From Mytilus galloprovincialis (lineage: Eukaryota > Mollusca > Bivalvia > Mytilida > Mytilidae), in contig NC_134840.1 in the NCBI RefSeq assembly GCF_965363235.1, positions 96,236,416 through 96,300,415 on the forward strand: a stretch of 64,000 nt of DNA. Reading direction: 5' to 3'. Numbering within the stretch: the stretch's first letter is position 1; each line of letters opens with the position of its first letter. The position numbers and the translations under genes are program-made. The notes beneath the pieces were generated by a model. That model did no database searches. It was not told the origin of the DNA and worked only from the letters and a program-made list of their open reading frames with translations. Shown piece by piece: positions 15,954 through 63,304 of the stretch.

Positions 15954-16175
15954 ATGAAAAGTTACTTTGTAATCATATTGATACATGGGATTTATATTAC
16001 CAGTTGTTTTGATAGATTTTTAAATGAAGAAGAGAGAAAAGTACCGAATAGGATCAAACGACTGAACGTAGGAAACGGAGAGTTCACAAACAGAATAGTT
16101 TTTACAACGACGAGAGAAGATGACCCAAGTGTATGGTTCAATAGGAAATATCCTCAATATGAATACATTGGACAG
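15954..16175 (+). CDS. Gene 1 coding exon 1: signal peptide and start of prodomain
   Basis: Residues 1-74, ending in phase 0 at GACAG before GTGAGAT. A hydrophobic leader (MKSYFVIILIHGIYITSC) is followed by an acidic/basic linker with RIKR at 33-36. The prodomain core then begins at EFTNRIVFTTTREDD, the position of furin's FTNTWAV. The start codon is supported by the matching ATG and leader in gene 2. Confidence 0.9.
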
Positions 16176-19100
16176 GTGAGATATGTTCTTGAAAAAAGGG
16201 TCTGAACTACATAATCCATTAGAATACTTCATTAATGTAGAAAATGTATTATCTTAAAAAGGCTTTAAAATGTTTTAAATATATCTGTTACTTCGTTAAT
16301 TTTGTTTTAATGGAAGATCTGTATATGCCCCATTTATGGGCATTATGTTTTCTGGTCTGTGCGTCCGTCTATTCGTCCGTTCGTTCATCCGTTCGATCGT
16401 TCGTTTGTTATTTCGTCCGTCTGTCCCGCATCAGGTTAAATGTTTTGGTCGAGGTAGTTTTTGATCAACATGATGAAGTTGAAGTCCAATCTACTTGAAA
16501 CTTAGTACATATGTTCCCTATTATATGATTTTTTTTAATATTGAAATGCCAAATTAGAGATTTTTCCACATTTTCACGGTCCATTGAACATAGAAATTGA
16601 TTTGCGGATGGGGCATCCGTGTACTTTGGACACATCATTGCTTAATTTTGCTACATTAACACGATTTAGATTAGAAACACTTAAGGAATGGATATATTGT
16701 ATATACATATCTTTGTTTGTTTGTGCTGCCCTCTAGGTAACTGCTGGGTTATTTTTGTCGTTCATGTCTGTCGCATTATTGATCGAGCATTTGATTTTGA
16801 AGGATTTTAATGAATTGAGCTTGTAGTTCTGTATTTTTGTTTTTATTCTATTTTATATTGACGTATACCCCACATCGCCATATATTCTTTTCATTATTAA
16901 AACTGGTTTGTAAAAATCATGGAAACTAACCGATATTCTTTTCATTATTAAAACTGGTTTGTAAAAATCATGGAAACTAACCGATATTCTTTTCATTATT
17001 AAAACTGGTTTGTAAAAATCATGGAAACTAACCGAACGACCAGTTCACACTTTGAAACAAGTATGGACTTTGCTCATTGTTTCAGGAAGAACGGTGACCT
17101 ATTGTAATTAATTTCTGTGTCAATTGGTCTCTTATGAAGAGTTGTATCGTTGGCAATCATACCACATATTCCTACTTTTATATATTCACTCGCTGTTTTC
17201 CTTTTCTAATGGGAACAAACTGTGCCCCTCTACTTGCCGACTTGTTTCTTTATTATTATGAGGCTGACTTTATGCAGGAACTTCTTAGGAAGAAAGATAA
17301 GAAGTTGACAATATCCTTTAACTCTATTTTCAGCTATATAGATGATATTCTTTCACTAAATAATTCAAAATTTGGTGACTATGTGGAACGCATCTATCCC
17401 ATCGAGCTAGAGATAAAGGATACACAGTTACGTCAGCCTCATATCTTGACTTATATCTAGAAATTGACAATGAGGGTCGGTTGAAAACAAAACTTTACGA
17501 CAAAAGAGATGACTTCAGCTTTCCAATTTTGAACTTTCCATTTCTAAGTAGCAACATTTCAGCAGCACCTGCATACGGGGTATATATCCCCGTGCTTGCA
17601 TTTTCTGTCATGATTTTCTTGATAGAGGGTTGCTGCTCACATGGAAGCTTTTAAACCAAGAGTTCCAAATGGTGAAGTTGAAATCATCCCTTCGTAAATT
17701 TTACGAACGCCATCACGAGTTGGTTGACTGTTATGGAATAACCGTTTCACAAATGATATCGGATATGTTCCTTACGTTGTAACTACAATCCTCTTCCCTT
17801 TCATGAATGTGACCTACCGAATTAGACTATTAACCGGATTTGTTATCACATAAGCAACACGACGGGTCCACATGTTGAGCAGGATCTGCTTACCCTTCCG
17901 GATCACCTGAGATCACCCCTAGTTTTTTGGGGGGGTTCATGTTGTTTATTCTTTGGTTTTCTATGTTGTGTCATGTGTGTTGTTTTTTGTTTGTCTTTTT
18001 CTTTTTTAGCCATGGCGTTGTCATTTTGTTTTAGATTTATGAGTTTGGCTGTCCCTTTGGTATCTTTCGTCCCTCTTTTAAAGAGACGATGTTATTTTAA
18101 AAATTTTTAAATAAATGTAATTGACAGGAAATAATGGCAAGCAAACATGTTGTTTCAAAAGTAGGAAAACAAAACTAAAACATGTCCATGACTTTTTCTT
18201 CCATCTTAACTAGGAGCTTGAGTATTGTGCTAGAATTGAGGAGCCTTACACCTTATTATTTGCCTCACTGCTTTCTATGTTAAGTACTTGATTTATAAGC
18301 AGGGCTCTTTTGTATTCAGTTAAAAACTAAATGACCGGTATTTCATGTAATATAGTATACATTGTATTGCCTTGTGCTAATGTAATTACATGTGAATGTG
18401 TACAGGTTCCCAGAATTGAGGAATTTCAAAAACCTAAAACCAGGCATATTAGTTCAAACAACAGGCTACATCTATCTCATTAGTATTGAGTTCAAAAGTA
18501 TTATACCTTTTTCAACGAGTTCTCATTGTAACCCAACTCAAATGTCACATAAAATCATCTTTTGTATACTTTTGAATGTGATGTATAACAAGTTAAACCT
18601 TTCAAAAATATATGGCGTGCTTCGTAGTATTTTAAATGTCAGTAATGCAACGTGAAGCAATTTTGTTCGAGTCGTGAATACCAATACTGTTAATTCATTT
18701 CCTACATTCCGTTTTGCACCGCGATTCAATTCAGTTATTATTAAAAAGTGAAAGAAATGTCATATTCACTGTAAAGTGTTGGCACTGTTGGTATTAAAAA
18801 GAAACTAGCTATCACCTTCTATAGCTACGGTGCAGGAAATGCATACCCTTCCGGAGCACCTGATTTCACTCCCAGTTTTTAGTGGAGTTTGAAAATATGT
18901 ATTTGAACCTGAAATGGATATGAAATTTCATTACAAATATGTGACGAATATATGAATATCGTATGAGTTTTTATTTGACCACACAAATAGCTTTTACAAC
19001 ATCTTATTATTTATACTAGATTACCGCCTTATAAGAATTAATTTTAAATTTGTAATATTTTAAAGAGGCTAAAAGGGTGTAGACACGGCGTGAACAACAT

Positions 19101-22100: not shown

Positions 22101-25100
22101 CTACCAACCTTAAAAGTTAAAATGACATACATAGCAGTGACATTTAAATTATACCGATAGCGTAACATTAGCTGTTGGGCTGAAAGGTATCTTAAATTAT
22201 TGCCAAGTCTGAAAGATGGATTAATAAAGTTGAGGATTTTACTCAAGGTTGAGCGATAATACTATATTCATAGTGTTGGTTCGGTGTGACTAAACGCATG
22301 AATCATACTCAATCGTTGTATTAAATCATCCTTTGTTTATGAACTATAATGATAGAACTATAAGTAAACTGAGAGCCGATTTTTTTTTTAAATGTTGATT
22401 GGGAATCAGGTTCATATTTTCTACTAAACAATGTTCTGATAGGAATATAGAAAAGTACGATTAACACGTCTTTCGTCTATATAAAACTTAAATCCAACAG
22501 GTCGAGAAAATTTCAATTAATTTGTTTGTGAATTATCATTGATATGGTCATAATCAGGAATTAACTGTCTACAAGACTTTTTTTTACCTCAGGAATAAAT
22601 TACCTTAACTGTATTTGACAAAACTTTTAGGAAATTGTGTTGTCCTATGCTCTTCAACTTCGTGCTTTATTTGGCCTCTTGAATTTTTTGTTCGAGCGTC
22701 ATTGGTGAGTCTTTCGTTGACGAAACCCGTATCTGGTGCATATTTGAAATTTAAATTCTGGTATCCATGATATTTTATTATTAAAATAGTATAGATACAA
22801 TCTTCTTAAATGACATTAACATTTGGTTGATGTGTTTTATCATGTGATTTTGCCATTTGATTAGGGACTTTCTGTTTTGATTTTTCATCCGAGTTCAATA
22901 TTTCTTTGATTTTACTTTTTTTTTAGTTTCGTGTTTACTGAAATGTTTATTCTTGTAAGTATGAAATACTTGACTTTACTCCCGTTTGACTGTATTTCAA
23001 CTGTGTTTATATTTTGTTTACTGTGTAATATTTTTCTTTGTTCTAGTTTTTGATTGGGAATACAAAGTATATCACTGCTCAAATACGACAGAAGAAAACC
23101 AAAGAGGTATTGAGTACTCTCAGAGAAGATTCGAATATCAAAGTTCTGAGACAAAGTCCTGAGGTAAGAGCAGATTTATTCTAAAGCGACTCGATGTGAC
23201 CACTTCATTATAGCATTTAAACTCAAACAAGTAAGAACTAACAGTACTGTACAAAACTATCAAATCCTATGATAAAAAAACCTTGGTTTGATTTTTCTGA
23301 ATATCGTATTTCTAAATCGTGACTCCTTATTCATTTTGTATCCCGCTTTAAATGTTGCTCTTTGTTTTTTCAACCGTACTCGTTATAATTTGTGATCACT
23401 TTTCTTACGATTATCTTTTCTGAATCCAAATTTATTTATATAAAGACATTTGTACTAAATCTATATTTTATTTTACTGACGTTCCTACTTGTGTCAGACC
23501 GTTACCTGTTTCTTAAATATGTTTATTTTTTCTGAATTAAAATTGTTTGAATAAAGACATTTGTACTAAATCTATATACAGGTTCAGTATTAAAAGTTAC
23601 CTAGAAAGATAATTGTATTTTTTTTACTGACGTGCCTACTTGTCTCAGACCGTTACCTGTTTCTTAAATATGTTTATTTTTTCTGAATTAAATTTGTTTA
23701 CATAAATACATTTGTACTAAATCTATATACAGTTCGAGTATTAAAAGTTAGCTTGAAATATAATTGTATTTTATTTTACTGACGTGCCTACTTGTCTCAG
23801 ACTGTACCTGTTTCTTAAATATGTTTTTTTTTCTGAATTAAAATTGTTTGAAATAAGACATTTGTACTAAATCTATATACAGGTTCAGTATTAAAAGTTA
23901 GCTTGAAAAATAATTGTATTTTATTTTACTGACGTGCCTACTTGTCTCAGACTGTACCTGTTTCTTAAATATGTTTATTTTTCCTGAATTAAAATTGTTT
24001 GAATAAAGAAATTTGTACTACATCTATATACAGGTTCAGTTTTAAAAGTTAGCTTGAAAGATAGTTGTATTTTATTTTACTGACGTGCCTACTTGTCTCA
24101 GACCGTTACCTGTTTCTTAAATATGTTTATTTATTCTGAATTAAAATTGTTTAAATAAAGACATTTGTACTAAATCTATATACAGGTTCAGTAATTAAAG
24201 TTAGCTTGAAAGATAATTGTATTTTATTTTACTGCATGCCTACTTGTCTCAGACCCTTACCTGTTTTTGAAATGAAAATTCTCATGCCTTAACAAAAAAA
24301 TACACAATGAATTTTATTGATAGCAGTGAGAAAAAATACTTTCCAGGCAATGGAGGAATAATTCAGGTATATGTAGTCTTGTGTTTTATTCACATGAGAA
24401 TAAGACCAAACATATTTGTATATCTCCGAATGAAGTATTGTAATTGTGACAAATTTTCAGAGAAGTAATGTACTGCTAGTATTTTAAGTGACTATATTAT
24501 ATTACTATGCATCTTTATCAAGATACAGAGACATCAGCTGTGTTGATAATATTGTCGTCTCTTGCTACACTCTAAGTACAGAGATATATTGAGTACGTTG
24601 ACTGGATTATCATCTATAATTACTATCTCAGAAAAAATTAATACCAGTATTATTACACCCAGTTGCTTTACCATGAAATCAGTGATAGCAGTTCAATAGG
24701 CAAGATTATTGTTTTTGTTTATAATATTAGTTCCATTTACCTTCAAGCGATTTCTTTTTATTGTAACTCTTTTTGATGGATGACAATAGACAGCATAAAT
24801 ATAATATTATGATTAAAAGAAAAAGTCGGATGTATGTAATTAAGACGGATATCAGACACAAACATGAAATGAACATGTAGTGGTCTGTAACAATATACAG
24901 GTATACTGACATAATGTTCAACTTTAAATCCAAGGTTTACCTGGATGTGAATTAAATAACCAAGCACTATCAGACATATAAGATCAACACATTGATTTCC
25001 GAAACGTCAAATACGATAATACATAGGACCATGATGGAAGTTTTATCTAACTGCAGTCCGTGTATACCGACATAGAAACAATTTTCCTACGAAAATCTTT

Positions 25101-28100
25101 ACATATTAAATTAAATACCTTTAGTTTCTCTTTTTCTCTTATAAGCCCGCTAGATATATCGTTCTCAATGATAAAATTGAGAATGGAAATGGGGAATGTG
25201 CCAAAGAGACAACAACCCGACCATAGAAAAAAAACAACAGCAGAAGGTCACCAACAGGTCTTTAATGTAGCGAGAAATTCCTGCACCCGGAGGCGTCCTT
25301 CAGCTGGCCCCTAAACAAATATATACTAGTTCAGTGATAATGAACGCCATTCTAATTTCCAAATTGTACACAAGAAACTAAAATAAAAATAATACAAGAC
25401 TAACAAAGACCAGAGGCTCCTGACTTGGGACAGGCGCAAAAATGATAGTTTGTATCTTCATTCATTGTAATGGTGATGATTTTGAACGCATATCGTGATG
25501 GTCATTGGTATTTTGTTTATCCGAAGACATTTTTTTTTAACTCTATCTTAAAACTTGTTGGAACGATAGCAATCTATTAAGATTTGACTTTCTTTAAACG
25601 ATGCATGAAGTTAAATATGTAGTTTTGTTTTAATCATGAGGATTGAAGTAATATTAATTTTTGATTTGAATTAATAAAACATTTCTTTTGCAAAAATTTA
25701 AAAGTCTATATTTTCGAATATAATACATTATTATGTCATTTATTAAACTTTATTGCAGATTTCATGGGTTAAACAAGAAAAGGCATATGTCAGAAAGGCG
25801 AGAACAGTGGATACAGAATGGCCGAATCTTTGGTATTTGGTATGGCTTCATTACGAAATCTGATATTTGTTATCAAAACATATTATTTTGAACTCATTTG
25901 TAACCTAGCTTATAATTCTATGTTTCGTCTTACATCAATAGTTTTCTGTGGCTAACACGATTCGTGCCTTGGCTTTCACCGAACTGCAAGCATGTAACTA
26001 TGTATTTTTGAACACTAAATGTTTCGCACAAAAACTCAACCACATCAAAGAAAAGGAAAACAACTGCCAATTTTATTTAGACAATAGGGAATTTTGCAGA
26101 CTATACAAATCAAAGTACTAGTAATAGAATGGTTAATGTAGGACTTACTCATAATTAGCAAAAGGTAAAATAACAAAAAATGCCCCTGACTTATATAGTG
26201 CCGTCCGTTTCTAATGTTTTACAGCTACTAGTATCTGATCCTCTCACTTGAATGACAGTCCATTAAAATTCCATCATATTGACAACGATGTGTATACAAA
26301 ACAAACAGATATCACATGTACAAATGTCGAAAATAGCAAGGGATAGTCAGATACATTACTGATATAAAACATAGTAACCAACCTTACAAAAACAATTAAA
26401 GAGCAGACTAAAATTCATCATTTCAGGATATTTTGTGTTTTGAATACGTTCAAAAATGTAAAAACAAATGTTGTAATCAAAAAGGTACCATAACAAATCA
26501 AATGTATGTTTAAATTTAAGAATGGTGATGTTTCTCCGTCAATGAAAGTTGACAAAGCCTGGGCGGCAGGTTATTCCGGTAAGGGTATTACTATAGCAAT
26601 TTTGGATGACGGTCTTCAGACAGACCACCCTGATCTGGCAGCCAATATCGTAAGTACACATTATTATTATTATATCTCTAAGTGTATTTAAGTAATTAAA
26701 CATTTTGTTACTCGAAACGTGCATGGATAACCAAGATTAAATTTAAACAGTTTCGAATATTGTATTTTACATAATATTTTTTATAAATTAGTAATAATAT
26801 CAAATAAGCATTGACTGTAACGTATTTGTATACACTGGATAATAATTATTGAAATCAAAAAGACTGACAGAGCAATGGTGTATTTACATAGAGAACATAA
26901 GGCAAAGGACGCGTTATCTGTAAACATATGTCAGGGTACACATCAACCTAGAGAGATTACAAATTGCATTAAAACAGCACAAACTAAGGACTGACTTCGT
27001 GCGATATTCTTTTTTTTTCAAAAATTATGTTTAATAGTTGTCAAAGGTACACAGCTTATAATTACATAGCCAGACGCGCGTTTTATCTACATAAGTCTCA
27101 ACAGTGACGCTGAGATCAAAATAGTTACAAGCCAAACAAGTAAAAAATTGAGAGAAAACGTATGATTTATTAGAATATCCCTCCTGATGTATTTGAGTTG
27201 ATGACTAGATTCTAAATGAAGCAAGAAGTAAAGAGAAAATATGTTTTTAAAAGTCGAAAACAACTTTCCGTTAGGATAATAATCAGGATAACCACATGCA
27301 TTTTGATGCTTTTTGAATATTTGTTCTTTGTCCTGAAATATTACGACACAGATATCATGCATTTTACTGAACAAGAAAACAGCCATGTAAGGGCCAGCTG
27401 AAACACGCCGCTGTGTTGAAGACCTATGTTTTTGCACTTTGGTCGAGTTGCTGTTTCTTTGATACATTTCCTTTTTTATTCATAATATTGTTCGAAAATA
27501 TAGATATAATCATGCTATTTTTTTAAATCTTTTAAAATAAGGTTTGATTTTCGGATACCACATGCATTCGATTTGTTTGCTTTATATTATTTATCTTCCA
27601 TTCAGGTTACACTAATTTTCAAGGAATGTTAATAATTATATTTGCTAAACATTATATAGGATACTGCCAATGATAGAGATGTTTATGACAATGATGATGA
27701 TCCTACTCCAACAAACGGAAGCAGGTAACCAGTTCGATTATAAGTCTACATAAACTTATTATATTTACCAGGATTAGAATTCACTCATCAGTGACGATCG
27801 TATGCAAAAAAACAAAAAGGTGTTATAAAGTTCGAAGTTGATAAGTACTAAAACATGCCAGGAACTATTACTTCTATTTGAATTAACAAGCGAACTTTCA
27901 TGTTTGTTAAATGTCCGAGCTTGGGTAAACTTTTTTCGTTTTTAGTTTGCTATCTTTTCCTGAACGTTTGTTTAAAAAAAAACCAAGTGCATCGGGCGTC
28001 ATCTAGCATTCACGAAACTAAACTTGTTTCAATGAGACAACAAATGCATTTCTCGGATATATTATGTGTCATTTTCTTGAAATACGTTGACTGTTTATTC

Positions 28101-45488: not shown

Positions 45489-45542
45489 TACTGATACTTC
45501 ATACACTAGACTATTTTTGGAAGAAAATGTCTTACTGTCATC

Positions 45543-48433: not shown

Positions 48434-48514
48434 GGTATATGTTGAGTTTCAATGTGAATAATTCCACTATCAAACAATTTATGTAATGTGATTTACTATT
48501 TTGTACATAAAAAA

Positions 48515-49012: not shown

Positions 49013-49090
49013 ATAATAGAACAGTAACATATTTGCATTATAATAGAACAATAACATAATGGCATTATAATAGAACAGTAACATAATGGG
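49013..49090. repeat. Short tandem repeat, about 29-base unit, 3 copies
   Basis: TTATAATAGAACAGTAACAT occurs three times with small variants. The antisense frame with repeated MLLFYYNA is a by-product. Confidence 0.85.
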
Positions 49091-49879
49091 GGAAAGGGGT
49101 TTTAAAGTACAGAGCAACGTCATATATACTAAAGAAACACACCAATATGTACAATCGGAAGGTTTGAACTTGAAGTCGTCAATTTAAATATGTTTTTAAT
49201 TGAAAATTAGTTGCAATTGCTGGGGTATAGATGAAAAAGATCATAGGTACATACTGGTCTTTAAAGCAGGAAAATATTTACGAAATATAAAATAGGCTTT
49301 ATTTGATCTATGACAATTTAAGCTATTTAAGATATATGCATTCAATATCATGAACATAGTTACCAATCATCGTGTTAATCAGTTAGAATGTATCATCGAT
49401 AGCTTTATAAGTTTACTATTTTCAACATGTTCAATGCTAGCTTTTGCATACTTTGTGATCAACGTAGTTTGAACATGAGATTCGCCTTATGCGAGTTGAA
49501 TAAATGTTCAAATAGAAGAATATGTTTCGGTCCGTAGATAAACTGTTCGTATAAAAGTCAAACAAATATACCAATTAATACTGCGTAATAGGCATTTAAA
49601 TGATGACAGACTGGAGGCTTCGAAAGGTTAGGAGTACCATGCATGCATACTCACTGTCTTTTAATTCACTTTGGGTACTATAAGAGTAAAAAATCGTTAT
49701 ATCAATTAAAATAGTTTTGATATGCCTTCAAAATTGTAAAGAATATGATTGAAGATATTCTGTTGTTATTATGAATTTTCAAGATTCCACATCTTAACAA
49801 TAGCATTCCTAAAATTTGCTGATATGTACATATATATATGTATGTCTGTAAGACTTCAATATAATATCTAAAAAACCAA

Positions 49880-49935
49880 ACAAAACAAGACGTACTCCTA
49901 TGCCAAAAAAAACAAAACAAGACGTACTCCTATGC
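49880..49935. repeat. Direct duplication, 32-base spacing
   Basis: ACAAAACAAGACGTACTCCT and the following ATG occur twice, immediately before the minisatellite. Confidence 0.85.
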
Positions 49936-49965
49936 AAATACAAAAAGGAGGAGGCCAATAACAAC

Positions 49966-50800
49966 GGACAGAATCAAACGCTCTCAATCAATGGAAACTG
50001 ATAGAAAATCAATGGAAACTAACAGAATCAAACGCTCTCAATCAATGGAAACTGACAGAATCAAACGCTCTCAATCAATGGAAACTGACAGAATCAAGCG
50101 CTCTCAATCAATGGAAACTGACAGAATCAAACGCTCTCAATCAATGGAAACTGACAGAATCAAACGCTCTCAATCAATGGAAACTGACAGAATATCAATG
50201 GAAACTAACAGAATCAAACGCTCTCAATCAATGGAAACTGACAGAATCAAACGCTCTCGATCAATGGAAACTGACAGAATATCAATGGAAACTAACAGAA
50301 TCAAACGCTCTCAATCAATGGAAACTGACAGAATCAACTGCTCTCAATCAATGGAAACTGACATAATCAAGCGCTCTCAATCAATGGAAACTGACAGAAT
50401 CAAACGCTCTCAATCAATGGAAACTGACAGAATCAAACGCTCTCAATCAATAGAAACTGACAGAATCAAACGCTCTCAATCAATGGAAACTGACAGAATC
50501 AAACGTTCTCAATCAATGGAAACTGACAGAATCAAACGCTATCAATCAATGGAAACTGACAGAATCAAACGCCAATGGAAACTAACAGAATCAAACGCTC
50601 TCAATCAATGGAAACTGACAGAATATCAATGGAAACTAACAGAATCAAACGCTCTCGATCAATGGAAATTGACAGAATCAAACGCTCTCAATCAATGGAA
50701 ACTGACAGAATCAAACGCTCTCAATCAATGGAAACTGACAGAATCAAACGCTCTCAATCAATAACAACTGACAGAATCAAACGCTCTCAATCAATGGAAA
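49966..50800 (+). repeat. Minisatellite, 33-base unit, about 25 units
   Basis: The unit (start ACAGAATCAAACGCTCTCAA, end TCAATGGAAACTG) repeats nearly without change across 835 bases, with some shortened units carrying ATATCAATGGAAACTAAC. Because 33 is a multiple of 3 and the unit has no stop in this frame, an open frame (49991-50764, 257 residues) reads METDRIKRSQS over and over. No signal peptide, splice context or codon-level signature of selection was seen, so I annotate it as repeat rather than gene. Confidence 0.9.
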
Positions 50801-50810
50801 AAATGTCCTA

Positions 50811-50900
50811 TATCTGACTAGGAACAGGAACTTTGTCTTATATCTGACTAGGAACAGGAACTTTGTCTTATATCTGACTAGGAACAGGAACTTTGTGTTA
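50811..50900 (+). repeat. Tandem repeat, 30-base unit, 3 copies
   Basis: TATCTGACTAGGAACAGGAA followed by CTTTGTCTTA, three times, adjoining the minisatellite. Confidence 0.95.
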
Positions 50901-50944
50901 TAGCTGGCTACATGTTCAATAATGTGACAGTTGTTTACATTTCT

Positions 50945-51240
50945 ATAAAGTAAAATAACAAAAATACTGAACTCAGAGGAAAATCAATTCGAAGAGTATA
51001 ATTACATGGCAAAATCAAATAATAAATTGCATAAAAAACGAATGGACAAGAACTGTCATATTCCTGAATGGGTACAGGCATTTTCAAATGTAGAAAATGG
51101 TGGATTGAATCTGGTTTTATAGCTAGCTAAACCTGTCACTTGTATGACAGTCGCATCAAATTCCATTATAGTGTCACCGATGCGTGAACAAAACAAACAG
51201 ACACAATAGGTAAAAAGGTCAAAAAATATTTCTATTGTAT
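50945..51240 (-). repeat. Dispersed repeat family A copy
   Basis: Minus-orientation copy with AAATACTGAACTCAGAGGAA, GAATGGACAAGAACTGTCAT and ACAGGCATTTTCAAATGTAG. Confidence 0.8.
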
Positions 51241-51654
51241 TGAAAAAAATGTTTAAACAACATACATGATAGATTATATGATGACAATTATTTGGATCCA
51301 GCAGTCAAAACTGGGTAAACATACATCACAGATATACATCATAATTTAATAAAACAATATTCAAACAACAATAAGATTAATCTTACAGAGACGACAACGA
51401 AAGAGAAGATAAAAACAACATGCAGTTGACAATGACGTCAACAGAATGTTTTTTTTGTCGTTGATGATATATACAGTTTTCAGTTTCTCTGTAAGTTAAA
51501 ATTAACTATAAATATCAAGGTAAATAAAATAAAACATATAGAAACATCACTGATAAACTGAAGAATAAAAATTATGTCCAAATCGCACATTGAATCTCAT
51601 CTGTTTCAGGATGCCAAAGTCAAAAATAAAACGGTTGAATGTGATATGTATAAA

Positions 51655-51795
51655 AATTCAAATCACAAAAATACTGAACACCCAGGAAAATTCAAAATGG
51701 AAAGTCCCTAATCAAATGGAAAACACATCAAACGATTGGACAACAACTGTCATATTCCTGAATTGGTACAGACATTTTTATATGTAGAAAATAAT
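51655..51795 (-). repeat. Family A fragment
   Basis: Contains AATCACAAAAATACTGAACA and ACAACAACTGTCATATTCCT, about 220 bases before the start codon of gene 2, so it may lie in or near that promoter. Confidence 0.7.
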
Positions 51796-52009
51796 TACGT
51801 TAAAAGTTATACAAATAAAAGGCCTAAATGTTCTATTAATACACACCAATAGAATGAAGTAACCTCCTATCAATTATAAAATATGTAACTTTTAAAGGGA
51901 TTTACACACAAAACAATCATTATTTCACGGACTAGTTCTTCCCTTCAAAACTGAACCATCCTTCTCCTATTATAAGTTAAAATTTTAAGTGTGCTGAACA
52001 ATTCCTGTA

Positions 52010-52240
52010 ATGAAAGTCTTATTTGTCATTGTATTGATACACATTAATTATCGGATTAGCGGATTAGAGCATGTTGACAGATTGGTTAGCGAAAAAGAGG
52101 ATAATGTTCAGAAAAAAATAAAAAGGGTTAACGTAAAGGATGGAGAATTCACGAACAGAATAGTTTTGACAACAACAAGAGAAGATGACCCACTATTATG
52201 GTTTAATAAAAAATATCATAGATATGAATACATAGGACAG
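52010..52240 (+). CDS. Gene 2 coding exon 1: signal peptide and start of prodomain
   Basis: Residues 1-77, phase 0. The leader MKVLFVIVLIHINYRISG is followed by a charged linker with KKIKR and then EFTNRIVLTTTREDDPLLWF, closely matching gene 1. The donor is GTAAGT. Confidence 0.9.
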
Positions 52241-55200
52241 GTAAGTTGAATTTTTTTTGTAAACAATGCTTTGTGTCTAAATTTGGTAAAACAAAAAGAA
52301 AAATCAAAAGACTGTACAAACACATATATAAATTGCTTTAAAGTTATCCTGACCTTACGAAACTCGAGACATTTACCAGTTTAAATTACAAACGCAATTT
52401 TTGCATTCTTAAGAGTTGATAATGAAATAGACAGATGGGTTTTATGTGAAAGTTTGAGATTTCCGATATCTTTTGTTGATGTGTATTTTTTTTAAAAGTC
52501 CAGGATTATTAGTATGATGAATAAAGGCGGGAAATGCCACAGGGTCTTTTAAAACCAACCTGACAACGCCATTTAAAAAACGAAAACGACGAAAATTCGA
52601 TCATGTCCACAAATATGTAGAAAAAGTAAACTCTCAATAATACAAAACTGAAAGTAAAATTCAAAACCAAAAGCTCAAACACATCAAACGAATGGGAAAA
52701 AAATGAAACAGTTACAATATCTCGTAGGGCGACTTTCAGATTGAGTCCGTTTGACTTCACCATTTCGAACCCTTCGTAAGCAGAAATCCGCTTTCTGGAA
52801 AATTATGACCAGCAAACTCTTGAGCTGCTAAAATGTTACTACAAAGAAATGAAATATTATTAGTTGCGAAGCTGTAAACATCTATTTTGACCAAAAGTAT
52901 TGTTTTCAATTGAACGTCATTCTAAATTTCTAGATGTATGTCGAGTTATGAGACAGAATTACTTAGATGTGTGCTATTTTGTTTTATTGTAATGTTCATG
53001 TGATAGATGTGATTAAAGTAGTCCCAAGCTTTGGATTATTTAGTGGGAGGTCATCATTTATATAGCGTAACGTGACGTTAAATGGGAAATGATGGTTTTT
53101 ATCTTTCATCTATTAAAGTATTTTTCGTAAGAAGTACGAGTTCTTCGAGAAGAGGAGTATACTAAGTCAATTGAATGCTGATCGTTTGTTTCATTTGTGA
53201 AAAATACGTCCTTCAAACGCAAGAAATGTGTTGTCAATCAAATATTCTAACATCTCATTACTGGAAAAAAATGTGTTTAAAAAGTATAATTTATCTCTTC
53301 CAAAAACTTGACTTGTCTTATGCATGTTATCAATTTGTCTACAAATTAGGCATGGAGTATACTAGTGAAATGGTTAGACGAGTAGACAAAACAAAACGGT
53401 AATACAATTGCCAAAAGAAACGAAACTTCGAGTGTATGTACTCTTCTACCATAAAGTAAACTTTTCAAGTGCATTTCAGTGAAAATATTTCATAACAATT
53501 ATAAAATAACAAAAAGGACTCTACCCGTTTAAATCCCACGCACAAGTACTTTTGTAATTTAATATTCAAAAGTATGATCGTGTTACTTTGTTGTGATTTA
53601 TACTTTTTTGTAAAAATCAATTGAGCAGAAAATACGATAACATTAAACTTTGTATAAAATTCAGTTTATATCACAATTTAAACGCAGATCATTTGAACTG
53701 TATACATATGATACTGCCATCAATGAGCATGTCACATGTCTTTAGGTTTACTCAAGATACGTAACTTTCTGTGTAGTATTGATTGTGAACCTGTTCACTG
53801 CGAGAGGGTTAGCGCTATAAAACCAGATTTAATCCACCATTTTCTGCATTTGAATATGCCTGTACCAAGTCAGGAATATGACAGTTCTTGTTCATTCGTT
53901 TTTTATGTGTTTTGTTATTTGATTTTGCCATGTGATTATGGACTTTCCGAATTGATTTTCGTCTGAGTTCAGTATTTTTGTGATTTTACTTTTTTGCAAC
54001 CATGTCGTTTACAGTTTTCTTGACTTTCTACTTTTGAACGTATCCCCTTTCCTGTTTTTATATGAAAAAAAAGATATCTACAGATTTAATGGTTTAACAA
54101 CCGCTTAAGTATATAAGTAATGAAATATGTGAAAATTATATGTTTTGTGAAATCCCTCATTATTTACAGATTAAAGCAAATATTTAGATTAAATAAAATT
54201 CAGATTTAAAACAACGCAGATAATCATTGAAAACTATGAATTTTAATTGATAATTCCTACAAATTACTAATTGATTGAGTATTAAAAAAGTGATTAAACA
54301 TTTTGAAAACCAACTTTTGAACTATTATTTATGTTTTTTATCATCCTTTTGACATTTGTTATTGTCCTTACCCCTCAGTTAAGATACTGCGTAAAGATAA
54401 ACATCAATTACCAAAATAAAAGTCTCTGGTTTCTCTTGGTCTTCAATCGCATGGAGAACATCCATACCTAACATTCCTATATTATAGGGAGTTATGATAT
54501 GATTGCCAATAAGACAACTATGCAAATGTGTTTAAATGAATTAATAGATCGCCTCTAATAAGGATTACCACACATACTAAAAGATAATTCCAAAGAATCC
54601 TCAAGTGACAAAATTTCAACACAAATACTAATCTTAATGACAAAACAAAAGCTAATAATGAATATGACATGTTATACCACATGACAGGCACTTACTTACC
54701 CCTGCCTTCGGACAATCCACATAATACATACAGTTTTTATTTTATTTTTATTGTCAATTACAACGAACATATAACTATTTTAGTTTTGGATTGGGGAAAC
54801 AAAGTATATCACTGCTCAATTACGTCAGACAAAAACCAAAGAGGTATTAAGTACTTTAAGAGAAGACCCGGATGTGAATGTCTTGAGACAAAATCTTGAG
54901 GTAAGATGTAAAAAGTGCAATGGTTTTTAAATGGGAAAAATGAAATCGGAAAACATTTAATCAGTTTTTACATATAAACGTTTATAGCTTTTTAACTTTC
55001 TCAAAATAAATTGTAAAATATCAACTACATATTATGGAGAATTGTTTGTGCATTTCAAAATTACATTAATACAATCACAATTCAGAATTATCGCATACAT
55101 GTATATGCACTATTTTATCACATGTCATGTGAATTAGTCACATGCATCTCTGCAATGAACCATACTGTTTCAATTAACTCTAGATATGACTTAATATCAA

Positions 55201-58200
55201 AAGTTACGGAAAGGTATTAAATCACAACCTAAATTCTGTAATTGCATACGACAGTACTTAAACAAACTAACAGGTTTTTGTTAGTTTTATGGTTTGGTTT
55301 TGTTCTTGTAAAGCTGAAATGAAGCCATGAAATTCTCTTATCATGTTTCCTTTGTTCAAATAATGGACTATATTAAAAACATCTTTCAACTTTTGACGGT
55401 TACGAGCATGACATTGTGCAGAGTCACTTCTTAATTTACATGAAGATGTGTTTTTGTTATTTGTATTAAAGTCAACTTTGCCTGAGGGAGTTGACCATAA
55501 ATCTCTCTTAACTCATATGTTCACGATATTCCTAAATGTCTTGTATATACTTGAAAAAACTTTTGTTGATAAACTTTTTGATGTTTAAACTAAATCTTCT
55601 CAACACCCTCATTGATTAATTGGATGGGTGTTATTTCTATTATAGATTTCTTGGGTTACACAAGAAAAGGCACACACCAGAAGGGCGAGAACTTTAGATA
55701 CAAAATGGTCGAAACTTTGGTATTTGGTAAGTAACGGACCTGTAATGCTAACAAGAGATTTTTAAATTTATACAGATACATTGTATTCCCATTACTTGAA
55801 TAAAACAAGAGTTGTGTTTCGGGACACACATGTTTTTTTTCTCTCTTGGTTATTGAAGCAAGGGCCAAAAATTCTTGACCTGATAAGTTGCCCATGACTG
55901 TATATTCATATCGCTTGAATTTGGTACACTACAATAACAGTTTAGTTTTATATATCGAATTCTTAGCTTAGATTTTTAAAGATTTTTCTTGTTCACATTT
56001 AATCAAAAAGCTTTAAATAAGACAATAACAATCAAAATCAAGGAGTAAACAAAGACTCACAAAACTAATGAACATTTTCATCAACAGTTATAAATTATAA
56101 GTAAGAAACAACACGATCAAGTTCACTTGGATATATTAAATGTAAGTTATCACTGAATATATTATTATTAATAGACAGTACATCATCAATATACCGAAAG
56201 GTGAAATTAAAAGACTAGGCTTACCTTTTATACAAGCCCTTGGATAAATTCTGCTTCATATGAATATAAAAAAAATCGGAAAGTAACATCAACTGTGCGC
56301 ACATTTACAAAACATTAGGTATTTTTACATGAAATAGCTAACGTTCCGTTTTCATGGGAAATTTTCATAGACAAATTGACCCATGAGTAAGCGTACAATC
56401 TCTTCTTCTTGGTGTCTGTGATGAATCCCGTCACATTATGGTTTAAAAAACTTTGTTGAAAAGCTATAGATTAATAAATAAGGTATCAGATCTATTAACA
56501 TGAGGATTTAAAATTTGAATACACATTCTGTTCACGCATCATAATTTTTTAACGGTTTACTGTCTTTTAAATACCTTAACTTCAATTAGTGATAAGCAAT
56601 TAAGTGATAAGGATTTTTTTCTTGCCCGGATGTGTCACTTTTAACTAAATATAGAAAAACTCCAAAAATTGTATAGCCTTATGAATGTTTCTCTGGTATT
56701 GTAAGCCCCTCTTGACTGTCCCTCTGGTATCTTTCGTCCCTCTTTAATACGTCTGATGTTGAAAAAACAAAACACCAGATAAGAGAGGTAAACTTGAAGC
56801 ACTAATTGGATTAATGACTCTGAATCCTTTCGTAAAAATCGTTGATTCCTACATTTGACATGATAACAATGACGGTTCCAATCTTACTGCATTTTATGCG
56901 GATTTATGTCGACAACGTATATCTCTTCAGCCTGAGGGTAGAATGATTGAAGATCCAAACCTTCAAAAAAGAATATAGACATGTTTTGATTTTTTTTCTA
57001 CTGAATCTAAACATGTTCTAATTTTGGAAGTTCCACAAATGAATATGATGTAAATGAACAATCGACTCACTTGTGATTAACTTGTAATGGTGAACGCTAT
57101 ATATATGTTCCTACATTCTAATAAATATGATTTCGTCGGGTATTGTGTAAGAATTGGAACTATCAACTTCTATTTCAGAATGGTGATGTTTCCCCATCAA
57201 TGAAAGTTGACAAAGCATGGGCGGATGGTTACTCTGGTATGGGTATTACTATAGCGGTGTTGGATGATGGTTTACAGACAGACCATCTTGATCTTGCTGC
57301 TAATGTCGTAAGATGCTGTTTTATTGATGTCCTACACCACGTCAGGATCATTGCCATTGTTATATTATAGTTCGTTTCTGTATGTGATTCATTTTTCTGT
57401 TGTGTCGTAGTTCTTCTCTTATATTTGATGTATTTCCCTCAGTTTTAGTTTGTAACCTGGATTTGTGTTTTTCTCAATCGATTTATGAATTTCGAACAGG
57501 TTCATACTGTCTTTATTTATTAACATTAGTCATTGTAAATTAAGATACTGAAACGAAGTATATCCGATTGAACATGATTGAATGTTGACAGATTCGAAGA
57601 TAAAAAAATATTTATAGAACAACACCTCAATGTACGACTATATAATATGAGAATACAGTTCTCATGTTGGTCCACTCATCCAAAGTACCAGTCAGTCAAA
57701 ATTCCTGTCGTAAATACCTTGGACTATTTACAATAAACAATAAGATTGAGAATGGAAATGGTGAATGTGTCAAAGAGACAACAACCCGCCCACCAATGGA
57801 TCTTCAACCTAGCGAGAAACTCCCGCAACCGGAGGCGTGCTTAAGCTTTTTCCTAAACAAAACTGTATACTAGTTCAGTGAATTCATACTTAACTCCGAA
57901 ATATACACAAGAAACTAAAATTAAAAATTATACAAGACTAACAAAGGCAATAGGCTCCTGACTTGGGAAAGGTGCAAAAATGCGGCACAGTTAATCATGT
58001 TTTTTTTTTTAGATTTCAACCCCACCCTGTACCTTTAGGCACTGTAGACAAACAAACACACAATATTACGCACAGTAAAATTCAGTTCAAAAGTTTGTTA
58101 TATGTAAAGTATACATCTGTAATCATTTCTGTGAGCTTTTCGGTGACCGTTTGTGCATCTAATTATGTTCAGGTAGTAAGTAAAATTCATTCAACTTTGT

Positions 58201-61200
58201 TAACATTGATTTGTATCCAGTAAAGAATGTTTTTTATCCATAATGTTTTTGTTTTCATACCGCACAGGACACTGTCAGTGATAAAGATTTTTATGACTAT
58301 GATGATGATCCTCGTCATGAAGGTGGAAACAGGTAAAAATCCTAAACTTAAAGATGAAAAACATTAATAATCCTTATCATGAAACCCTCATAGTGATGCC
58401 GGGAAGAGGTAATAATCCTTCTCATAATGACATATACAAGTTTAAATATAATATCTATCATCACATGGGATACAGGAATTAAATATTATCATCACGCTAA
58501 AGACGGATTATAATCTTTGACACAATGTCAAATCTAGGAATAATCATAATCATCTGATTCAAAATATAGTTCAGTTATAGCTGTAGGGATCCTATATAGG
58601 TGATTTTGCTGTGCTGACAAATCATTTGCAAGTTTTAAGTCAAATTTAGATTTTTTAAATCTTGTAATATGACTTATAACGCTATGCAAAATATTGAATA
58701 TAACTATATTAACTTTTAGTTTTTTATTATATTTTGGTTAAAGCGTTTTGAAAATCATTGGCAAATAACAAAGTTTGAAAAACACAGATCTTTGTAGCCA
58801 AATACAACTTGCAATCTTTGTTTTGTCATTTGCTTTCATATTACGTGTGATTTAATTAGTACTATGATTTCATCATTACAGTATAGGTATTTGTCTTATT
58901 TTAGTCACGGCACAGAATGTAGTGGCTTAATAGGTGCAGTTAAAGACAACAATATATGTGTAGTTGGTGTGGCATTTAGCTGTACTCTTATTGGTAAGTT
59001 TGCTTTGAGGTTTTTTAAAGTTACAAAATAACGTTTTGTATAACCTTACAGCGATGGCCAATGATTCAGTACTGGCAGTTTTAAGAAGATTTTCTCTCGG
59101 ACTATAAGTATACTGAAAAGATGAAAAATAACTTGTTATTTGGTAAACGTGTCTTGCTTGTTGAATTTCAATAAAATCTGCATTCCAGTCGAATTTCTCT
59201 TGGAAAATCTAGAGTTAATTACGGGTTGTAACTAAGAACTTGTTCACACTCATTTTAAAACGAGTAAATCATATAAATACATATATAGCTCTTATGCAAA
59301 TAAGTTCACTGTCCAGCCATGGCTTTACATATTTAGCCTTTTTAAATTATACACATTTTTTTTTTTGGTTTATTTACCTTGGGATTTTACAGATGTATAA
59401 TTATTTCATTGGTATTTGTCGAGTGGTAAGTTATATTTTCCATTTGAGTGAATTCAAACTTAAAAGGCCAGCCTGCTATGATATATTTAGTGTTGTATTA
59501 TATCTTCCATTTTTTAGATCTGAAAACATGGTTTTCATTACAAACAAGCTAAGAACACCTAACAGAAACAAAATGTAGAAAATAATTATAATAAACTACA
59601 ATATATTTAACGGAATCAGCGGTTTTTTTTCTGTGTATCCGTTCTTAACAGAATTTTGCTGTAATATTTCTTGATATCTCGGTTAATAAATATTAACAAA
59701 AGCAAGACGGTATGATCATGATGATAAATAATCATTTTACATCTTAACAATGATATAATTTGATTTACAGGAATTCGGATTTTAGGTGATAGCGCTTTGT
59801 TAGATTCAGATGAAGCCCAAGCTTTAAATCACTATATTTCAAAGATTGATATATATAGCAACAGCTGGGGACCAGGAGAGCTAACTGGTTTCGAAGAACC
59901 CGGTCCAATCACAAAGGTAGCACTGCAGAATGGAGTAACTAATGTAAGTTTATATATCTGATGTATATATAAAGGATGTTTAACTCTTGCCAAAGTGTAA
60001 GGTGTCCGTTTAGCTATGCGGTATACATTGAAGTCTATATAATTGTCAGAGTATGTTGTTGACTATAATATGAATCAATCATATATAGACAAGGATTATA
60101 CAGTGCAACCACAATAAAGATAAAACAGTATGAGTGTTAAAACTGAAAGCGAGTGACTACAATATGAATTCATAATATTTAGGCCACGATTATACATTGC
60201 AACAACAATACAACTTAGACAGTATGCGTTTTTTCTCCTGAAAACGCCATTTAAATAAACACGATTGATAATTCAAATATATTTTATGAAAGTTGCTGGT
60301 GTCATTTTTACATGTATTACCCGGAGCATTTTATATACTAGTTGAAACATATGTTGGGTCCAAATTCCCTTCATAAAATCCTGAAAGCATAATCAAAATA
60401 TAATAAAGGATCTAAACCTTTATCAGACTTAAAGTACTAAAAGCAGAAAATAAAATAAGATAAATGTTTCGGACAACGAGCAATAGAACATACAATGGGG
60501 AAAATAAATAAATGATATTTCATATGTTTGTCTCACAATCATACCACATCTCATTATTTTATATTGCACAAGGTGATTATCCAAAATTTTTCTCATTTAT
60601 TAATATGAAAGGGAAGGAATGGAAAAGGTTCTATTTACATATGGGCTGCAGGTAACGGAGGTACGGCAGACAATTGTAATGCTGACGGCTATGCCAACAG
60701 TATATATACTGTCGCCATCACTGGTGTACAAATTGGTAAAAATGCATGGTATTCTGAGGTTTGTGCTCCTGCTTTAGCTGCAGCGTATGGTGGAAGTGAA
60801 GATGACAGATTTATGGCAAGTCTTATGTTGTGCATGGGTAAAAGGTTATCAAAATTGTGAGAACTTAATTCCCTGCAAAAGTGTATTTCTGGTTAATCAA
60901 ATTATGTCCTGAATCAATTTCCTATTCTTTATTGCATACACCAATATTTACTGATAAGATAACATCTTCTATACTTTGGCTCACTGTAGTATTTATTTTG
61001 ATGCAACCATGATTTAAAAACCAGTAAATAAACATTCATATACAGATTCTATCTCGATACTTGACTTCTGTGAGGTTTTTCTTTTCCTTTGTTTTCAAGA
61101 TGTATTAACTTGTGTGAGTTAAAAAAAATAGTATGCCGCTCTACTGTATGAGGACAACAACGTAACGACAGAAACACTGAAGTGCAACAAAAACAAACTT

Positions 61201-63304
61201 CTACATACATAGAAACATTTAGAAACGAACATTTGCCATATTCCTGAATTAGTACAGGACATTTGAAGAAAATATGGTTGTTTTTTAATCTGGTTTCATG
61301 GCTAGTCAACATTCCCACTTATATCATTTATATGGCAATGATGAAAATACCGCTAAAATGGCAACATGACATGACAGGAATTCAGTATAATTAATCGCAA
61401 GAACACCCAGCACAGAGAAAAACATAGATAATAGCAAAATAATACATTACAATATGTTAACCACAGAATAACAACGAACACTTTGCATCAATTTACGACG
61501 AGATATCATAAACAAAACATAAACAAAGACCTGGTAAAATTTCACTTATTTAGACACAGGCCAATTGAATAGATCAACCTATTCGTGATGGTGTCCAATA
61601 TATTTGTCATTTCTAACATTTCCTCATCATAGTTTTGTGTGTGTACAGTTCCTGTACACTCCCGTAAATGTAGTCAGTGTAGTATAAACATTTCATTGTA
61701 AGTAGAACAAAAACATAGAACAGCTAATGTATCTAAGGTAGATAAAAACTGGTTTTTTTTTTAGACTACAACAACAACAGCATCAGGATGTAAAACCGAG
61801 GGTGTCCAAGGAACGTCATATGCCGCACCAATAGCCACTGGTATTGCTGCCCTCACCCTAGAGGCTAAGTAAATACATTTTGATCTTTTTTTTGTTGCTC
61901 ATATAAGTATCGTCACATGTAACTAGTGCTGCTGTGTGATTCCATATTCACCGCATGCTTCTGCAATAGTTGACATTCTTGTTTAAACAAACGCGCATAA
62001 TTCCACTAAATGAGCAATATAAGGTATCGTTACGGACCTGTGTAAAGTAATTCTATGCACGGACTATTTTGACAAACATATGGACGGAAATTAAGAATAT
62101 AACAATTGTAGCCTTTGTATGAGGTTAATACAAGTCAATATATTCCTTAACTCCATATTAATAAAACTTTAATAGTTTTTTTTTTATGAATGGGAATTTG
62201 AATAACTTAGAATAATAATCTGCAGAAAGATATATTCACCAAACAAAACGTCGCGTGCTTTTACTTGTATAATTTAGGTAAAAAACTTTGATGTCAGTTG
62301 GGTTTGGTAAATAATGTCAATTACATGCAGTTCTCCCAGAATATTGCATAAAATGACTATAACTGTATCATTTTGCAAAGCAGTATCGTCACCACTGATC
62401 GAAATAATTTAATCGGTATAAAAGTATACAATACATTTATTTGACGCATTTAGTACATACAATACAGTAGTTGATACTTGAGCAGTCAAATGCAAATCGA
62501 GTATTCATTGCACAAAGTAATTGTGATTCAACAGTTCATGGGAATCAGTAAAGTAAACATATAACTGCTAGTTTCATTAGCTTATTATGACAGACATTGG
62601 TTAGAGGTATAGGGGAGGGTTGAGATCTCACAAACATGTTTAACCCCGCCGCATTTTTGCGCCTGTCCCAAGTCAGGAGCCTCTGGCCTTTGTTAGTCTT
62701 GTATTATTTTAATTTTAGTTTCTTGTGTACAGTTTGGAAATTAGTATGGCGTTCATTATCACTGGACTAGCATATATTTGTTTAGGGGCCAGCTGAAGGA
62801 CGCTCCGGGTGCGGGAATTTCTCGCTACATTGAAGACCTGTTGGTGACCCTCTGCTGTTGTTTTTTATTTGGTCGGGTTGTTGTCTCTTTGACACATTCC
62901 CCATTTCCATTTTCCATTTTATGACATATCATAACATTCTTTGTATAGCATACAGTGCCGATCATGGTTTTTGTTTCTACATGCCAGACTGAATATGGAT
63001 CATTTACTGGTATTAATATTATGTCGCATATAATCAAAAATATCTCTAAAGCATAACATTTATATTTTGTTAAAGTGTATTCTCGGTACATGTTTTCTAA
63101 ACAGAGTATCTTCAATGATATTTAAATTGTAAAGCAATGTTGCTACGTTTACCCTCAGTTGTGTAGATTATTGTCTTTATATTTATATTGCCAGTCCAAA
63201 CCTGACCTGGAGAGATATACAACATCTGATTGTTTTCACATCAAACAGGAATGGTTTTAATGACACGTACTCTGAATGGTCTATCAACGGGGCAAATAAA
63301 GAAT
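52010..63304 (+). CDS. Proprotein convertase-like serine protease (PC-like gene 2), first 10 coding exons, truncated by window end
   Basis: Ten exons (1303 bases, 434 codons plus one base) join without a stop. They cover signal peptide, prodomain ending RRAR at 128-131, and the S8B catalytic domain through the exon matching gene 1 exon 10. Catalytic residues are Asp172 (VLDDG), His209 (SHGTECSG), Asn310 (WAAGNGG) and Ser381 (QGTSYAAP). Exons 2-10 equal those of gene 1 in length and phase, so it is a tandem duplicate. By hand count exon 4 matches at 38 of 43 residues and exon 8 at 57 of 68. Exon 1 is 9 bases longer. The P domain, stalk and membrane span are presumably beyond base 64000. Differences from gene 1: WGPGELTG instead of WGPDDGTG, HLDL instead of HPDL, Cys retained after HGTE, and a GC donor on intron 8. 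Confidence 0.92.
53795..53993 (+). repeat. Dispersed repeat family A copy
   Basis: Good copy with CCTGTACCAAGTCAGGAATA, TGATTATGGACTTTCCGAAT and TTTTGTGATTTTACTTTTTT, in intron 1 of gene 2. Confidence 0.85.
54784..54900 (+). CDS. Gene 2 coding exon 2: prodomain
   Basis: Residues 78-116, phase 0. FWIGETKYITAQLRQTKTKE and VLSTLREDPDVNVLRQ parallel gene 1 exon 2. Splice sites are TTTTAG and GTAAGA. Confidence 0.9.
55646..55726 (+). CDS. Gene 2 coding exon 3: prodomain cleavage site
   Basis: Residues 117-143. VTQEKAHTRRARTLDTKWSK contains RRAR, the predicted autocleavage site. The mature enzyme would start at Thr132. It ends LWYL. Splice sites are TTATAG and GTAAGT. Confidence 0.9.
57179..57307 (+). 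CDS. Gene 2 coding exon 4: catalytic Asp
   Basis: Residues 144-186. KAWADGYSGMGITIAVLDDG carries Asp172. The family's HPDL is HLDL here. Splice sites are TTTCAG and GTAAGA. Confidence 0.93.
57735..57995 (-). repeat. Dispersed repeat family B copy
   Basis: Minus-orientation copy with GAATGGAAATGGTGAATGTG, CCGGAGGCGTGCTTAAGC and TAGGCTCCTGACTTGGGAAA, in intron 4. A plus-strand family B fragment (about 57371-57500) lies in the same intron. Confidence 0.8.
58268..58332 (+). CDS. Gene 2 coding exon 5: acidic calcium-site loop
   Basis: Residues 187-207 plus two bases. DKDFYDYDDDPRHEGGN, as short as in gene 1. Splice sites are GCACAG and GTAAAA. Confidence 0.9.
58905..58993 (+). CDS. Gene 2 coding exon 6: catalytic His
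   Basis: Completes Ser208, then His209 in HGTECSGLIGAVKDNNICVV and GVAFSCTLI. It keeps the Cys after HGTE that gene 1 lacks, and has an additional Cys in SCTLI. Splice sites are TTTTAG and GTAAGT. Confidence 0.93.
59771..59943 (+). CDS. Gene 2 coding exon 7: S1/S4 pocket region
   Basis: Completes Gly238, then to residue 295. DSDEAQALNHYISKIDIYSN is conserved. The pocket motif reads SWGPGELTGFEEP, without the Asp pair of gene 1 or furin. Splice sites are TTTACAG and GTAAGT. Confidence 0.93.
60612..60815 (+). CDS. Gene 2 coding exon 8: oxyanion Asn, GC donor
   Basis: Residues 296-363. GRNGKGSIYIWAAGNGG carries Asn310. The two disulfide Cys and CNADGY are kept. The exon must end at ATG before GCAAGT, a non-canonical GC donor, to match gene 1's exon length and stay in frame. 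The acceptor is GAAAG. Confidence 0.9.
61190..61330 (-). repeat. Family A fragment
   Basis: Contains TTTGCCATATTCCTGAATTA and AATCTGGTTTCATGGCTAGT, in intron 8 of gene 2. Confidence 0.6.
61765..61868 (+). CDS. Gene 2 coding exon 9: catalytic Ser
   Basis: Residues 364-397 plus two bases. ASGCKTEGVQGTSYAAPIAT carries Ser381, after a Thr run as in gene 1. It ends LTLEA. Splice sites are TTTTTTTTTAG and GTAAAT. Confidence 0.93.
62605..62925 (+). repeat. Dispersed repeat family B copy
   Basis: Contains TCCCAAGTCAGGAGCCTCTG, GGGGCCAGCTGAAGGACGCT and TTTGACACATTCCCCATTTC, in intron 9 of gene 2. Confidence 0.85.
63195..63304 (+). CDS. Gene 2 coding exon 10: end of catalytic domain
   Basis: Completes Asn398, then PNLTWRDIQHLIVFTSNRNG and DTYSEWSINGANKE, ending in phase 1 before GTGAGT. 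This is the last exon inside the window. Confidence 0.92.

Follow-up and report, generated by a model that had tools for sequence, protein, structure and literature searches.

Two genes of an expanded, divergent clade of putative kexin-like convertases in the mussel Mytilus galloprovincialis

Among the described systems closest to the genes considered here, furin (PCSK3) has a C-terminal membrane span, the yeast kexin Kex2 possesses a P domain and a membrane anchor and requires a dibasic site. Enzymes of the SKI-1/PCSK9 type are devoid of a P domain. The sets of proprotein convertases (PCs) present in single animal species are small and stable: according to PMC8244231, mouse and human have seven, and invertebrates have PC1/3, PC2, in some cases PC7, and as a rule two furins. 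The same source describes basal PCs of Nematostella, which are likewise located outside the PC1/3, PC2, PC7, and furin clades, and these six cnidarian genes are likened by description only to the genes studied here. The latter, designated gene 1 and gene 2, lie in a window of 64,000 nucleotides of the M. galloprovincialis genome (contig NC_134840.1, in the following C3; C3:96236416-96300415). Both genes encode what are probably working, membrane-anchored members of an expanded and divergent clade of kexin-like convertases with monobasic specificity, judging from their domains, residues, and putative self-cleavage sites. The clade comprises 17 genes, and an expansion of this type was not described among the literature matches listed, most subscription papers being outside reach. 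In the main text of the pan-genome paper PMC7653742, the terms convertase, furin, kexin, subtilisin, proprotein, and peptidase are not mentioned.

Structure of gene 1 and gene 2

Gene models were obtained by spliced alignment of the raw sequence and cross-checked against the raw reading frames; positions given without a contig refer to the window. Gene 1 consists of 15 exons on the plus strand, reaching from the ATG at 15954 to the end of the stop codon at 44300, and all of its 14 introns are of the GT-AG type. It is complete, as stated in the original prediction, and encodes 722 residues according to the model instead of the 723 assumed there. Gene 2 is located on the same strand and extends within the window from the ATG at 52010 to the end of exon 10 at 63304; its exons 11-13 are found outside (C3:96301123-96303816), and one GC-AG intron is present among the 12 introns that were read. 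The distance between the two models is 7.7 kb (44300-52010) and not 6.9 kb as previously given. Exons 2-10 have the same lengths in both genes (117, 81, 129, 65, 89, 173, 204, 104, and 110 bp) and equal phases, the joined exons of either gene contain no stop, and the two proteins are 73.9% identical in an alignment of 595 columns.

An S8 catalytic domain followed by a P domain was found in both proteins. The matches to PF00082 (cut-off 21.8) reached 160 bits (E 1e-46) for gene 1 and 159.1 bits (E 1.9e-46) for gene 2, those to PF01483 (cut-off 21) reached 78.8 bits (E 3.4e-22) and 65.6 bits (E 4.3e-18), respectively, and all of them are far beyond chance. The presence of the P domain distinguishes both genes from the SKI-1/PCSK9 type. 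Spliced alignment, Pfam matches, and stop-free joined exons confirm the predicted presence of two intact, spliced, same-strand genes with S8 and P domains, and the alignment also confirms the common lengths and phases of exons 2-10.

The domains are distributed over the exons in a parallel manner, all exons being on the plus strand. Exon 1 (15954-16175 in gene 1, 52010-52240 in gene 2) carries the ATG, the leader, which is hydrophobic in gene 1, and the start of the prodomain, which continues in exon 2 (23047-23163 and 54784-54900). The putative self-cleavage site is encoded by exon 3 (25759-25839, at the end of the prodomain, RKAR^T, and 55646-55726, RRAR^T; the caret marks the bond predicted to be cut). 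The catalytic Asp (DDG in gene 1) follows in exon 4 (26521-26649 and 57179-57307), the acidic loop preceding the catalytic His, which is shorter than that of furin, in exon 5 (27660-27724 and 58268-58332), and the catalytic His (SHGT in gene 1) in exon 6 (28532-28620 and 58905-58993). Exon 7 (29815-29987 and 59771-59943) contributes the loop of the S1 wall, SWGPDDG in gene 1 and SWGPGELTG, with Glu replacing Asp, in gene 2. The oxyanion Asn (AGNGG in gene 1, which also has the motif NCNADGY) is encoded by exon 8 (34440-34643 and 60612-60815, the latter having the GC donor), the catalytic Ser (GTSYAAP in gene 1) by exon 9 (35007-35110 and 61765-61868), and the end of the catalytic domain by exon 10 (35999-36108 and 63195-63304), after which gene 2 runs on beyond the window from C3:96301123. 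The P-domain region of gene 1 starts in exon 11 (39180-39297), occupies exon 12 (41184-41488), and is completed by the final strands in exon 13 (42037-42093). Exon 14 (43163-43333) encodes a Thr-rich stalk and exon 15 (44077-44300) the predicted transmembrane segment, a basic tail, and the stop. The stretch behind the P domain of gene 1 (43163-44300) thus combines the stalk with a hydrophobic span of 19 residues (Kyte-Doolittle mean 2.78). P domain, Thr-rich stalk, and hydrophobic span (Kyte-Doolittle mean 2.31) of gene 2 are located beyond the window edge. A donor-like GTAAGA directly follows the transmembrane segment of gene 1, so that the end of the predicted basic tail is provisional.

Catalytic residues, substrate-site residues, and putative self-cleavage sites of the clade

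A profile search of the genome (1.385 Gb) yielded 44 exon matches to PF01483, which were divided by position and exon similarity into 17 belonging to the branch that includes the two genes (clade X in the following), eight at seven other PC-like loci, and 19 more divergent ones; these numbers and those of the exon searches are lower bounds. The two genes originally predicted as a pair are real but represent merely two of the 17 clade members, 14 of which are located on C3. Besides gene 1, gene 2, and a member at 96.33 Mb, these are a, b, c, d, e, and f (95.87, 95.92, 95.94, 95.98, 96.01, and 96.09 Mb), h, i, and j (78.60, 78.70, and 78.98 Mb), and k and l (111.35 and 111.41 Mb). The other three members are m on C8 (47.25 Mb) and n and o on C12 (36.46 and 77.64 Mb). 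Member f, on the minus strand, seems to be oriented head-to-head with gene 1, and its exons are seemingly spread over about 160 kb, from C3:96230477 down to C3:96071502, the outermost two having been assigned from their order.

In separate searches, the exons with the catalytic Asp, the catalytic His, the S1 wall, the oxyanion Asn, and the catalytic Ser were recovered for all 17 genes. In furin numbering, with positions taken from the alignment to furin, D153, D154, H194, N295, D306, and S368 are invariably kept, the catalytic Asp, His, and Ser and the oxyanion Asn being intact throughout the clade. D233 is present in all 15 genes read at this position and E236 in 14 of the 15. In these features the clade resembles human furin (structures 1p8j and 4omc), which has the same S8 and P domains, and the S1 acidic residues of the S8 domain are shared with Kex2 (structure 1ot5).

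Other positions close to the substrate differ from furin. Residue 369, directly after the active Ser, is Tyr in nine and Phe in eight of the 17 genes and Ala in human furin as well as in all six other mussel PC-like rows read. In the SWGP loop, one residue fewer is present than in furin, and an acidic residue is retained in every clade member (Glu in gene 2 and the 96.33-Mb member, Asp in the other 15). The stretch preceding the His could be read across the splice in 12 of the 17 genes; exon 5 measures 65 bp in eight of them and 68 bp in the other four, and the loop is three to four residues shorter than in furin. By an ungapped count from the His, the equivalents of furin D191-N192-R193 are G-S-S in gene 1, e, and k, G-N-S in gene 2, d, and h, G-D-S in l, F-D-S in a, W-D-S in b, D-D-S in c, S-D-S in the 96.33-Mb member, and K-F-P in n. 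D191 is consequently kept in a single gene (c) and absent from 11 of 12, and residue 193 is Ser in all but n, which has Pro. Of the S2 acidic pair D154 and D191, a feature of the dibasic type, genes 1 and 2 retain D154 and lack D191.

Self-cleavage sites were assigned to clade X prodomains only, by their spacing from an upstream aromatic-x-x-Q motif and by comparison with the furin site, RTKR^D; exon 3 could be read in all but one of the 17 genes. Written from P4 to P1', the sites are RKAR^T in gene 1, RRAR^T in gene 2, RKAK^T in f, RVPR^T in i, RVPK^T in h, b, c, and l, RVTR^T in j, RKTK^T in n, RITR^T in o, RVLK^T in e, k, m, and d, and RVKR^S in a. P4 is Arg in all 16, P1 is Lys in ten and Arg in six, P1' is Thr in 15, and P2 is non-basic in 15 (Ala in genes 1 and 2) and basic in one. 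The prodomain apparently ends in a basic site at which the protein would cleave itself, as in the kexin/PC family, and membership of this family (S8B) is well supported by domains, residues, and this apparent site, protease activity being predicted from them. Assignment to the dibasic-specific PC type is not supported, genes 1 and 2 having neither D191 nor a basic P2.

We propose that genes 1 and 2 encode zymogens in which leader and prodomain precede the S8 catalytic domain and the P domain, with a Thr-rich stalk and a single membrane span behind them. Such a zymogen would first remove its prodomain by cleaving itself after an R-x-x-R/K motif and would subsequently process further precursors, either secretory or located at the cell surface. 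The clade most likely cuts monobasic sites of the form R-x-(P/L/A/T)-(K/R) followed by T and not dibasic KR or RR sites. An R-x-x-K/R specificity is suggested because the self-sites follow this pattern and the residues serving P4 and P1 are retained; a monobasic preference is further indicated by the absence from genes 1 and 2 of D191, which helps to bind a basic P2 in furin, and by the bulky aromatic residue beside the active Ser. Activity, specificity, membrane topology, and substrates are all deduced from sequence, the specificity by alignment to furin.

Several observations weigh against this proposal. The link between pocket and site is apparently not strict, since c has D191 together with Pro at P2 and a has the classical site RVKR^S, and the sites cut in substrates need not equal the self-cleavage sites. 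Asp occupies position 192 in a, b, c, l, and the 96.33-Mb member, five of the 12 genes, and could serve a basic P2, and the gap in the SWGP loop blurs which residue partners D258. Besides those of genes 1 and 2, only one membrane span was noted, a candidate located downstream of the 96.33-Mb member. The 5' part of this member is unsettled, the alignment having crossed a stop, and its self-site was not read.

A more far-reaching proposal, which we consider possible and put forward with reserve, is that clade X forms a new PC subfamily with a mucin-like stalk as tether and a specificity for R-V-x-(K/R)^T, Lys being accepted at P1, and that its 17 genes, accompanied in this species by an ordinary PC set and the 19 loci of the more divergent set, would serve precursors which furin and PC1/PC2 leave unprocessed. 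About 36 further P-domain loci (17 plus 19 of the 44 matches) in one mussel, together with altered residues close to the substrate throughout the clade, would represent a natural experiment in which a constrained processing enzyme acquires new substrates, and cleavage predictions for mussel precursors would change, as to both the proteins and the sites concerned.

That the clade is an immune-related family maturing mussel defence precursors appears rather unlikely, even though contigs annotated as convertases respond to infection. A haemocyte contig of M. galloprovincialis annotated as "furin-like protease kpc-1" was raised only in Vibrio-infected animals, with a mean fold change of 62.65 (PMC6401078), a kpc-1 contig was listed as primed (142.49) in a study of repeated challenge, in which a PCSK5 contig (317.59) was among the strongest changes (PMC6697025), and in Ostrea edulis infected with Marteilia a proprotein convertase showed one of the strongest increases (PMC9679248). 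These contigs were not matched to clade X loci, and the precursors of mussel CRP-I and myticalin carry dibasic KR/RR sites according to PMC10138031 and PMC12294457, which fits ordinary PC types better; the myticalin paper leaves the cleaving convertase unnamed. Because the published precursor sites are dibasic, processing of antimicrobial peptides was not adopted as the preferred function. In studies of mussel immunity, a label such as "furin-like" or kpc-1 may stand for several distinct enzymes.

Quite improbable is the view that the clade members act at the membrane without proteolysis, as decoys or binding proteins whose fold is kept by constraint. The altered pocket residues, the changed residue beside the active Ser, and the loss of this Ser from two of eight copies of the more divergent set on C2 would suit such proteins, but every one of the 17 clade X genes retains the four catalytic residues, and basic residues occupy P1 and P4 of all 16 self-sites read, features for which an inactive enzyme would have no use.

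Phylogenetic placement and selection

Trees were calculated with rows for clade X, the other PC-like loci of this genome, human furin, and yeast Kex2 as outgroup. The first was based on 193 columns from the His exon to the Ser exon, two rows of the more divergent set being left out; a rebuilt tree on 191 columns excluded intron-split residues and included, for n and o, the S1-wall exon. In both, clade X forms one branch (support 100/100) on a stem of 1.95 (193 columns) or 1.83 (191 columns) changes per column, with gene 1 as the sister of gene 2 (95/88 and 96/88). When the two divergent rows were included, one of them fell inside clade X, and clade X as a single clade was not rejected (p value of the approximately unbiased test, p-AU, 0.184). 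The human and mussel furins pair with each other, clade X remaining outside (99/95 and 96/92). Genes 1 and 2 are therefore placed outside the human-mussel furin branch and do not qualify as furin orthologues. The duplicated branch postulated in the original prediction is thus separate from the other PC-like rows of the genome, from human furin, and from Kex2, and shows purifying selection (see below) and changed substrate-site residues, but with 17 genes it is far bigger than a pair. The lineage specificity assumed in that prediction, and shell, byssus, gamete, or defence precursors as substrates, are conjectural.

The position of clade X relative to the PC types is less confined. A sister relation of clade X to furin is not rejected (p-AU 0.091), a further point that weighs against the proposal favoured above, nor are groupings with furin plus the PC5-like row (0.38), with the PC1-like row (0.122), with the PC2-like plus C10 rows (0.122), with the PC1, PC2, and C10 rows (0.393), or with the PC2-like (0.276), PC7-like (0.381), or C10-like (0.274) row alone; a clade of all other PC rows excluding X gave 0.464. 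The PC1-, PC2-, C10-, and PC7-like rows are partial, the last comprising 117 residues, and the tree program warned of long branches meeting. Several sister relations, that to furin included, are hence compatible with the data. Forcing genes 1 and 2 alone to group with furin resulted in a p-AU of 1.3e-7 (0.0005 in the rebuilt tree); this constraint also splits clade X and is unfair because it breaks up the clade, and the test of the whole clade leaves the relation to furin unrejected.

PC2 has Asp in place of the oxyanion Asn, and this was also found in the PC2-like locus at C3:67.79 Mb, whereas all 17 clade X genes have Asn; by this residue they are not PC2 orthologues. A position of both genes within ordinary furin or PC2 clades had been named as the outcome contradicting the original prediction. 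In the part of this test that was run, the furins pair without clade X and the oxyanion residue is unlike that of PC2, but sister relations to furin and the PC2-like row are not rejected.

Still less probable than decoys are ordinary furin or PC2 duplicates with the usual dibasic specificity and function. The same domain order, similar exon lengths, an identity of 42-49% to human furin in the catalytic region, and the unrejected groupings with furin, furin plus PC5-like, and PC2-like plus C10 rows are in line with this origin, but the genome contains a separate furin-like locus that shares 80% identity with human furin across 192 residues and pairs with it, in addition to PC5-, PC1-, PC2-, and PC7-like loci (names presumed by us from motifs). 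The long stem of clade X, its oxyanion Asn, and its mostly non-dibasic self-sites also argue against such duplicates.

Comparison of gene 1 with gene 2 gave 0.97 synonymous (dS) and 0.16 non-synonymous (dN) changes per site and a dN/dS of 0.164, with values of 0.27 for the prodomain, 0.16 for the catalytic part, and 0.10 for the P domain. The median dN/dS of clade X is 0.129 (range 0.067-0.415) over the 103 finite values among 136 pairs of the 17 genes, which are not independent, 33 pairs being saturated and giving no ratio; a count on 15 genes gave a median of 0.128. Clade X is under purifying selection. That genes 1 and 2 are pseudogenes or alleles was rejected on the basis of dS, dN/dS, and stop-free exons. 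The least probable explanation, extra copies that are assembly artefacts (haplotigs) or decaying pseudogenes, can point to the saturated pairs and to a PC locus near-identical on two contigs (C10:11.70 Mb and C213), which makes haplotigs possible in this assembly, but is opposed by a minimum dS within clade X of 0.225 (h versus i), by a dS of 0.94-0.97 between genes 1 and 2, judged too far for alleles, by five catalytic exons free of stops in all 17 genes, and by the low median dN/dS.

Further loci of the genome and other features of the window

The locus just mentioned is a divergent PC-like gene of unassigned type present at C10:11.70 Mb and on the 33-kb contig C213, perhaps one gene and its haplotig; both copies are counted among the seven other PC-like loci. 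The second divergent set consists of 19 P-domain exons accompanied by S8-like exons, and in this respect it resembles clade X. Its members are located on C2 (16.8-17.2, 72.7-72.9, and 70.85 Mb), C7 (75.72 Mb), C8 (87.87 Mb), C9 (21.16 and 51.11 Mb), C10 (1.86, 18.73-18.80, and 42.25 Mb), and C14 (17.69 Mb). In a C10 member, the active Ser is followed by Phe, and its row was placed among those of clade X in one tree. The set differs from clade X by very long branches, by the loss of the NCNxDGY aspartate from this C10 member, and by the two of eight C2 copies in which Ala or Phe occupies the position of the active Ser. The idea that all copies of the C2 cluster are pseudoproteases was rejected, the Ser being kept in six of the eight and in the C7 copy.

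Between genes 1 and 2, a 33-bp minisatellite is located at 50007-50800 within an open frame of 299 codons (49865-50764, plus strand) with a unit of 11 residues, many copies of which contain a KR pair. The frame had no Pfam match; the repeat is probably a satellite, although it resembles a multi-copy peptide precursor. On the minus strand at 3635-6423, a retroelement remnant with many stops gave an integrase zinc-binding match above the cut-off and a reverse-transcriptase match below it. Three look-alike open frames of about 90-105 codons are present in or beside gene 1 (17826-18107, 39374-39649 on the minus strand, and 45268-45582); two of them are 82% alike over 68 residues, the third was assigned by eye, and they probably represent a dispersed element. 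Elsewhere in the genome, at C10:51.84-51.88, C10:43.9-44.1, and C1:94.61-94.64 Mb, 17 matches to the Myticin-prepro family, known from Mytilus-type mussels, were found, seven of them with internal stops.

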